This document shows positions 1 to 1,282 of a DNA stretch of 22,747 nucleotides, piece by piece. A program made the translations under genes and the position numbers. The notes under the pieces were generated by a model. It ran no database searches and was not told the DNA's origin. It saw only the letters and a list, made by a program, of their open reading frames with translations. Numbering within the stretch: position 1 is the stretch's first letter; every line of letters starts with the position of its first letter. This DNA comes from a virus, in IMG/VR virus record IMGVR_UViG_3300010375_000052, positions 1 through 22,747 of that record; one strand, 5' to 3'.

Positions 1-132
1 CTTCTCGCGTCCTGCAAGGGTTATCTGGACGGCATCGCCCAAGCCTGGGGCATCAACGATAGCGTTTTCGACCCGCGCGTTCAGATTGGCGAGCCCATCA
101 AAGGCGGCAAGATCGTGGTGACGTTGGGATGA
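1..132 (+). CDS. C-terminal end of a phage protein, possibly RusA-like resolvase (5' partial)
   Basis: An open frame enters from the left edge and ends at the TGA at 130-132, giving 43 visible residues. The segment contains LDGIAQAWGIND, then GEPIKGGKIVVTL at the end. The 'YLDGIA.A.GIND' followed by a C-terminal beta strand resembles, from memory, the end of RusA-type Holliday-junction endonucleases, where an aspartate-rich DNL...LDGL..GV..DD segment precedes the last strand. This fits the neighbouring replication-type gene, because RusA genes usually lie near replication modules of lambdoid phages. Most of the protein and the main catalytic aspartates lie outside the window, so the family call is tentative. 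The stop codon overlaps the start of the next gene as ATGA. Confidence 0.45.
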   Translation, partial: LLASCKGYLDGIAQAWGINDSVFDPRVQIGEPIKGGKIVVTLG

Positions 133-548
133 GCTATATCTATTTTATTGAGTGCCGGGGCGCGCACACGATCAAGATCGGATATACGTCGAGCAACCCC
201 TTATCGCGCCTATCTTCCATGCAGACAGGATGCCCGTATGAATTGAGGCTCCTGTTTTACGTAGAAGGGACTCTTAGCGAGGAAAAGGCGCTCCACGAGC
301 TTTTTGCTCCGCTTCTTCTTCGCGGGGAATGGTTTTCCGACGAATTGAAGCTCGCCGATTTGACCGGCTGGTGCGTGGCCGATGTCCCGTTCGGTTCCTT
401 GATCCCAAGGCCATCATTTATGGAGGCGCTTCGCCACACTATTTGGAACAAGAAGCCGGCCTATCCTGGCGACAACGAGGCGCTGTACGGGATGAGCGCC
501 GATATAGACGTTCTAGTGGGCAACTGGCCCGAGGCCGTGATGCCATGA
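129..548 (+). CDS. GIY-YIG / T5orf172 (Mug113-type) family protein
   Basis: The 139-residue protein opens with the strand YIYFIE (residues 3-8), followed by KIGYT (16-20) and an arginine at 27. A glutamate pair (51-52) lies before ALHELF, and GEWF is at 66-69. This spacing is characteristic of the T5orf172/Mug113 branch of GIY-YIG proteins, which are small phage and plasmid proteins related to homing nucleases. Nuclease activity of this branch is rarely shown. The core ends near residue 75, and the C-terminal 60 residues have no recognised motif. The start overlaps the preceding stop and the end overlaps the following start, both as ATGA, so translation is probably coupled. The family is fairly clear; the role, such as DNA processing or exclusion, is not visible in the sequence. 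Confidence 0.8.
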   Translation: MSYIYFIECRGAHTIKIGYTSSNPLSRLSSMQTGCPYELRLLFYVEGTLSEEKALHELFAPLLLRGEWFSDELKLADLTGWCVADVPFGSLIPRPSFMEALRHTIWNKKPAYPGDNEALYGMSADIDVLVGNWPEAVMP

Positions 549-1282
549 GGCCCGCGAGCGATGTCATGCGCGATCTAGCGCTCTCCGGCCTAACAGTCGA
601 CCAGCTCGCGCTTGTCATGGAGCTTTCTGCTAGCTTGGGCGGAGAGGTTCGCCGCGATCCCGTAGCCGAAAAGCGCCGTGCATATGACCGTGAGCGCAAG
701 CGGAAATCCACCGGAATTCCACCGGAGTCCACGGAATTGGTTTCCCCCAAAGAATATATATCAAACCCCCATCCAGTTACCCCATCAGCTAAAGCTGATA
801 CCCCCCTTAACGATTTTCCAACTCGGGTTGTCGAAGGCTGGAACACCGAAACCGCTGGCACACCCCTGCCGAAAGCCAGACCACTCACCCCAGACCGCCG
901 GAAGCACCTTGCCGCCAGGGTCAAGGAACACGGCGAAGACGCGGTTTTCGTGGCAATCCGCAACATGGCCGCCAGCGAATTTCACTCCGGGAAGTCTGGA
1001 AAATGGACCGAGGGCAATCTCGGTTGGCTACTGAAAAGCCCTGAAAACTTTACGAAAATGCTGGAGCGCAGTGCGCCGCCTGCTGCCAAGCAACCCGTGC
1101 CGGTCGAGCAAACAATCCAAGCACGGCAGGACCAGGCCAGGATTTACCGCCGCATGGGCCGGGAGAACGAGGCTGACGCGCTGGACCGGGAAACCGAGCG
1201 CATCCGCAAAGCCGCAGGAATAGGCGAGATATTGCACCGCATCACCCCGCCTAACCAAGCCTCTGACCACGGTTCGCATTAA
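545..1282 (+). CDS. Phage replication-organiser-like protein
   Basis: The frame is open from further upstream, but ATG 545 overlaps the preceding stop as ATGA and begins a sensible protein of 245 residues. Residues 1-57 are helical and end in a basic stretch (EKRRAYDRERKRK). Residues 58-92 form a Pro/Ser/Thr-rich linker. Residues 94-175 form a domain beginning VVEGWN, then LPKARPLTPDRRK and HGEDAVFVAIRNM, ending near SGKWTEGNLGWLLK. From memory, this C-terminal domain is widespread in replication-organiser-type proteins of alphaproteobacterial prophages. The last 70 residues are helical and charged. The DNA encoding the linker carries direct repeats, an AT-rich run and a palindrome, the arrangement seen in lambda gene O. 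Origin binding is inferred from family resemblance and position. Confidence 0.6.
   Translation: MRPASDVMRDLALSGLTVDQLALVMELSASLGGEVRRDPVAEKRRAYDRERKRKSTGIPPESTELVSPKEYISNPHPVTPSAKADTPLNDFPTRVVEGWNTETAGTPLPKARPLTPDRRKHLAARVKEHGEDAVFVAIRNMAASEFHSGKSGKWTEGNLGWLLKSPENFTKMLERSAPPAAKQPVPVEQTIQARQDQARIYRRMGRENEADALDRETERIRKAAGIGEILHRITPPNQASDHGSH
700..806 (+). other. Candidate phage replication origin inside the replication-type gene
   Basis: Three near-identical units lie in tandem: TCCACCGGA at 707-715, TCCACCGGA at 718-726 and TCCACGGA (one C shorter) at 728-735, with start-to-start spacings of 11 and 10 bases. They are followed by an AT-rich run (AGAATATATATCAAA, 751-765). A perfect palindrome follows, ATCAGCT at 784-790 and AGCTGAT at 793-799, flanked by C-runs. 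Iterons, an AT-rich unwinding region and a position inside the replication gene are the lambda-ori arrangement. The repeats and palindrome are seen directly; origin function is inferred. Confidence 0.45.

Follow-up and report, generated by a model that had tools for sequence, protein, structure and literature searches.

The window, which is the whole stretch of DNA analyzed here, comprises an entire IMG/VR record: a linear fragment of 22,747 bases. Three further IMG/VR contigs carry the same protein as the replication-type (rep) gene of the window at about 90% identity and served as close relatives (L001 and L002, probably one phage, and L003). The features at the locus are as follows.

129..548, plus strand: T5orf172/MUG113 (GIY-YIG-like) gene; Pfam PF13455 (1.7e-10) and PF10544 (1.6e-5); ATGA overlap with the rep start
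545..1282, plus strand: rep gene, 245 aa; PHROG 19658 (1.6e-14), 10469 (2e-10) and 345 (2e-7)
659..709, plus strand: part coding for the basic helix, residues 39-55, ...KRRAYDRERKRK..., helix H39-55 in the AlphaFold model
707..715, plus strand: iteron 1, TCCACCGGA, kept in L001-L003
718..726, plus strand: iteron 2, TCCACCGGA, kept in L001-L003
728..735, plus strand: third unit, TCCACGGA, degenerate; altered in L001/L002, partly deleted in L003
743..770, plus strand: C-tract-flanked AT-rich core, TCCCCCAAAGAATATATATCAAACCCCC, proposed unwinding element; unchanged in the relatives over 743-799
784..799, minus strand: hairpin, bottom strand ATCAGC-TTTA-GCTGAT, loop 790-793
827..1069, plus strand: C-terminal domain of Rep (DnaD-like/O-like helicase-loader type), from PHROG matches

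The rep gene and the elements in its linker-coding part

Rep consists of a short helical N-terminal part, a basic helix, a disordered linker and a helical C-terminal domain. Its AlphaFold model (pLDDT 82, with low confidence at linker residues about 60-90) displays two short helices and the basic helix in the N-terminal region. The PHROG matches, labeled 'replication initiation', 'DnaD-like' or 'O-like', involve the C-terminal half, and the C-terminal domain is common to 80 viral loci. Pfam returned no DNA-binding domain for Rep, and its N-terminal part showed no winged-helix domain like that of lambda O; a PDB fold search with the Rep model gave nothing useful (best E 0.39), and scans of genome collections found no relative of this Rep, the core peptide pattern matching other taxa only. 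The basic helix is the counterpart of an RQARYRERK stretch that directly precedes the iterons in other Reps, and is proposed as the candidate iteron-binding part.

The T5orf172/MUG113 gene is a neighbor of rep and lies outside the proposed origin. Its ATGA overlap with the rep start is also found in L016 (L016:1172-1624), and the domain is fused within the Rep of L090 (L090:1281-2261) and, by eye and without Pfam confirmation, in that of L071. T5orf172/MUG113 is a recurrent partner of phage Rep. Further upstream, an ORF at 1-132, cut by the start of the record and ending in ...EPIKGGKIVVTLG, looks by eye like a RusA-type resolvase. Downstream of rep, no match to a P- or DnaC-type helicase loader was seen among the small ORFs at 1294-2299 of this fragment.

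A preliminary description of the locus had pointed to three tandem TCCAC(C)GGA-type repeats, an AT-rich run and a perfect palindrome within the linker-coding part, and all of these are present. The repeats, at 707-735 with spacings of 11 and 10, are non-random: the linker contains 9 repeat pairs against a null mean of 0.9, and 0 of 200 shuffles in which the protein is kept and synonymous codons alone are changed reach 9. The 11-base spacing puts the repeats in different codon registers, so that there is no corresponding amino-acid repeat. The third unit fared less well than its neighbors: besides being degenerate, it reads TCCGTGGA in L001/L002, and the L003 copy is broken by a 2-nt deletion. 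The conserved iterons are therefore only two, which is few for an iteron origin and counts against reading the region as one.

The AT-rich run AGAATATATATCAAA at 751-765 is invariant in the relatives. It lies in a core, taken as 749-766, whose 21-mer AT content ranks among the highest 0.4% in the window and which retains low-use codons (ATA 7%, TCA 9%). The palindrome at 784-799 can be written as 7+7 with a 2-base spacer, and is better described as a 6-bp stem with a 4-base loop (ATCAGC-TAAA-GCTGAT on the coding strand). Taken alone it does not reach significance in the window (p 0.1-0.2), and the region has no Rfam match; since significance at this single locus is weak (p about 0.1), the case for the hairpin rests on conservation and recurrence. 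C-tracts of 4-6 flank the core and hairpin on the coding strand (741-806; also in L030, L031 and L149), with G-tracts on the other strand. Such C-tracts occur in many of these GC-rich Rep linkers, and could indicate a G-quadruplex or be a by-product of proline-rich linkers. GC skew lends no support to an origin: the window is a fragment, and the skew minimum in L015 is 4.8 kb from the element.

Conservation in close relatives and proposed exchange of parts in distant ones

The DNA alignment with L001-L003 shows no change in either exact iteron, in the AT core and its flanking C-tracts, or in the hairpin. Within this small sample of close relatives, variable codons make up 4 of 35 in 700-806 versus 79 of 199 elsewhere in rep (Fisher P 0.001), and no other stretch of rep stays unchanged for as long as 743-799, where even synonymous positions show zero changes (permutation P 0.014). 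Of the elements whose retention the preliminary description proposed to check by nucleotide alignment, two iterons and the palindrome are retained while the rest of rep drifts; the third repeat is not conserved. The linker peptide PKEYISNP is conserved too. In L003 (L003:173-908), rep falls into two frames because of the deletion at the third repeat, with iterons, core and hairpin intact; this is perhaps a sequencing error, or perhaps a real two-frame gene.

More distant Reps display the same order of elements with different parts. The nearest relative by C-terminal domain, L043 (62% identical), has GTAACG/CGTTAC iterons, a core (CCCCCAATGATATATATTCTAACCCCCC) similar to that of the window, and a hairpin that is letter-identical to those of the window and L001-L003. 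L152 combines another N-terminal part and 11-bp GCCATCGGACA repeats with the same hairpin sequence. Searching with the 18-base core led to L016 and L025, in which Rep has a different C-terminus and is followed by a primase/helicase-type gene; here, five GTNACGTAAC-type iterons are followed by CCCCCTAAAGAATATATATCAAACCCCC and then by the hairpin CGCTTTC-TAAC-GAAAGCG. L016 contains a 22-base exact match to the core (AAAGAATATATATCAAACCCCC), even though its Rep differs in iterons and C-terminus. L026 carries the hairpin CAGTTTC-TATC-GAAACTG in the equivalent position. The RQARYRERK-type basic stretch sits directly 5' of the iterons in this group. The exact 18-mer CCATCAGCTAAAGCTGAT recurs in about ten unrelated contexts, mostly repeated signal-peptide-like PSAKAD, and these matches are coincidental.

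Iteron type thus differs among Reps (TCCACCGGA, GTNACG, TGATCAC, GTCTTAA or GCCATCGGAC), and the order of iterons, C/AT-rich segment and hairpin stays. In the window and in most relatives, iterons are more numerous than synonymous shuffling predicts (combined p 3e-35, 39 loci), and so are iteron-like repeats in the relatives sharing the C-terminal domain. From these sequences we infer that the N-terminal part and the iterons have been exchanged together, with core, hairpin and C-terminal domain forming a separate unit. At L042:2501-3100, a Rep N-terminus truncated to 63 aa precedes another Rep-like ORF whose repeats are new (GTCTTAA/GCGTCTGAAACC); the replication module may have been duplicated here.

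A class of hairpins in Rep linkers

Hairpins with stems of at least 6 and loops of 3-4 were counted in 70 non-redundant Rep linkers (43 gathered by the C-terminal domain, plus the window, L043 and L152, and 24 by the basic stretch), with permuted synonymous codons as the null. The coding-strand loop is mostly C-T(A/G)A(C/A)-G and the stem varies freely; read on the bottom strand, the loops are d(cGNNAg) (30 versus a null mean of 0.58), d(cTTTAg) (15 versus 0.25) or d(cGNAg) (4 versus 0.10). The class total is 49 hairpins versus about 1 expected, approximately 50-fold over the null, for a loop class that was defined after inspection of part of the same data. Class hairpins occur in 44 of the 70 loci (null mean 0.93, maximum 4; 26 loci are without), a frequency that the way loci were gathered may inflate. 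Their density is 2.93 per kb in linkers versus 0.011 in 283 kb of flanks of the same loci, a 270-fold difference, and the mirror orientation, with the same loop motifs on the top strand, occurs 0 times among the 70 linkers. Independent loci agree with this picture, and in view of the strand asymmetry and the low density in the flanks, the class is unlikely to have arisen by chance.

Three loops, C-TAAC-G, C-TAAA-G and C-TGAC-G (bottom strand GTTA, TTTA and GTCA), account for 39 of the 49. The window loop, TTTA on the bottom strand, falls outside d(cGNNAg)/d(cGNAg), which 34 of the 49 members fit as GNNA or GNA; of the 30 GNNA loops, 29 have a pyrimidine in third position. When the loop was ignored in selection and only tetraloops with stems of at least 7 were taken, 29 of 33 were closed by C-G and 31 lay in the same codon phase. 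These 33 hairpins have 28 different stems, and their loops carry T at position 1 in 28 cases, A at position 3 in 25 and C at position 4 in 25. The free stems disfavor a sequence-specific site in double-stranded DNA, and the one-sidedness of the loop disfavors a symmetric site. The shared codon phase agrees with a common ancestry of the elements, because indels in the linker must keep the frame.

Among independent loci anchored on the C-terminal domain, the class is present in 5 of 22 (null mean 0.16, maximum 2), or 6 with L212 on the correct strand (GTAATCC-TAAC-GGATTAC). Carriers include Bacteroides phage BS-TP2 and Pseudomonas phage phi297, whose replication gene has a CTGACG hairpin; the hairpin of L219, one of the five, is in a different codon phase and may be due to chance. 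Genes of named phages, found mostly via N-terminal domains, contain the class in 1 of 18, and on the other 17 we reject the idea that every O/DnaD-like gene has the hairpin. The class hairpin is hence widespread, not universal. Its occurrence showed no link to the absence of a phage helicase gene. In L045, L097 and L114, T-A closes hairpin loops of TATTC or TATC; these do not belong to the counted class, and the element may be broader than that class. In the literature searched, mostly journals readable without subscription, no hairpin of this type is described for phage rep genes. The palindrome, initially regarded as one more part of an origin, has turned out to be the most widely recurring element.

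Origin reading, alternatives and known systems

On these sequence patterns, 700-806 is very probably a replication origin nested in the linker-coding part of the phage's own initiator gene. The fuller explanation that we favor, and consider probable, adds a sequence of events: Rep would bind the iterons through its N-terminal part and basic helix, the AT core would open, and the bottom strand of the opened region would fold back on itself as a small hairpin whose loop is unusually stable. This hairpin would mark or protect the place where helicase or primase is loaded, with loading aided by the C-terminal domain of Rep; helicase loading, priming and prevention of strand closure are all candidate roles. 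On account of its loop motif, we take the hairpin to be a signal that acts in single-stranded DNA once the origin has opened. GNA triloops and TTTA loops are regarded as specially stable in DNA. Selection experiments identified d(cGNNAg) as a stable DNA tetraloop (Nakano 2002, cited by PMC8373063). Against this reading, nearest-neighbor energies favor the bottom strand only slightly and give no advantage to TTTA or GNA loops. Because the loops are narrower than stability alone demands, a protein may read them.

Whether the hairpin acts as DNA bears on an alternative in which iterons and AT core alone make up the origin and the hairpin works in the rep mRNA or an antisense transcript, as a terminator, processing or translation signal. 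The region is transcribed, minus-strand T-runs follow the hairpins of L031 and L038, and nearest-neighbor RNA parameters likewise favor the bottom strand of GNNA loops. However, a T-run is absent after the window hairpin on both strands, Rfam gives no match, and the coding-strand loops UAAC, UGAC and UAAA form no single RNA class. RNA stability on the bottom strand predicts GNRA loops, whereas a purine at the third loop position, needed by RNA GNRA, is nearly absent; together with the d(cGNNAg) motif, this argues for DNA, and we regard the RNA alternative as unlikely. Slightly less so, though still doubtful, is a specific form of the favored explanation in which the coding-strand apex, CTA or CTG, presents a primase start site. 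These trinucleotides are used by several bacterial DnaG primases, and the three most frequent loops place one of them at the apex in most loci; but CTA and CTG are common anyway, and TTC and TCGC loops do not fit.

It is highly improbable, in our view, that the region is an operator for Rep autoregulation instead of an origin. Initiator iterons can serve autoregulation in iteron plasmids, but the sites here lie about 160 bp into the coding sequence, with an AT core and hairpin behind them, and the entire order of elements recurs across different Rep families. That a DNA element is nonexistent, conservation reflecting protein-level constraint or recent common ancestry, is hardly credible: the linker peptide is itself conserved and the relatives are few and close, yet synonymous sites are frozen at the element and not elsewhere, low-use codons are kept, the 11-bp-spaced repeats are out of codon register, and class hairpins far exceed the synonymous null.

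Extending the favored explanation beyond this locus, we see about an even prospect that phage origins widely carry a single-stranded DNA signal in the form of a hairpin, its stem free and its loop fixed (mostly c-KTYA-g or c-GNA-g on the bottom strand). The signal would be phase-locked in the linkers of Reps with DnaD/O-like C-terminal domains and some others, and would recruit helicase-loading or priming machinery on opening. The origins of most uncultured phages are unknown; if this reading is true, a rep-linker hairpin whose loop, strand and codon phase are fixed would allow origin and orientation to be called from sequence alone, and would pose the question of which replication protein reads the hairpin regardless of its stem sequence.

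Phage genes for DnaD-like helicase loaders or replisome organizers share the C-terminal domain family with the window Rep (PHROG 10469, 19658). They differ in their N-terminal domains, and the named-phage matches that involve the N-terminal part only are without the hairpin. In the ssi/PAS single-stranded initiation hairpins of phages and plasmids, a small hairpin serves as a loading or priming signal. The window hairpin near the opened origin is proposed to act likewise; here, by contrast, the stem sequence is free and the loop alone is constrained, and a PriA, DnaA or primase site is putative at most. The arrangement as a whole has a close parallel in lambda, whose gene O harbors both iterons and an A+T-rich segment (PMC5043065; PMC6022878; also the sequence of locus L163), and a nested origin is thus of an already known kind. 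The lambda-like origin put forward in the preliminary description is supported in part: by conservation at the DNA level, by the recurring order of elements, in which the initiator gene carries iterons and then an AT-rich segment between its N-terminal part and C-terminal domain, and by the different iterons of L043 with core and hairpin kept; the C-terminal domain also matches the PHROG 'replication initiation O-like'. The likeness does not extend to the sequence and number of the iterons, to the winged-helix N-terminal domain, which is not recognizable in the window Rep, or to a P/DnaC-type gene, which is not seen beside rep; lambda O, in turn, has no hairpin of this loop class. The window departs from the lambda plan in its hairpin of this loop class and in a Rep without a recognizable winged-helix domain.
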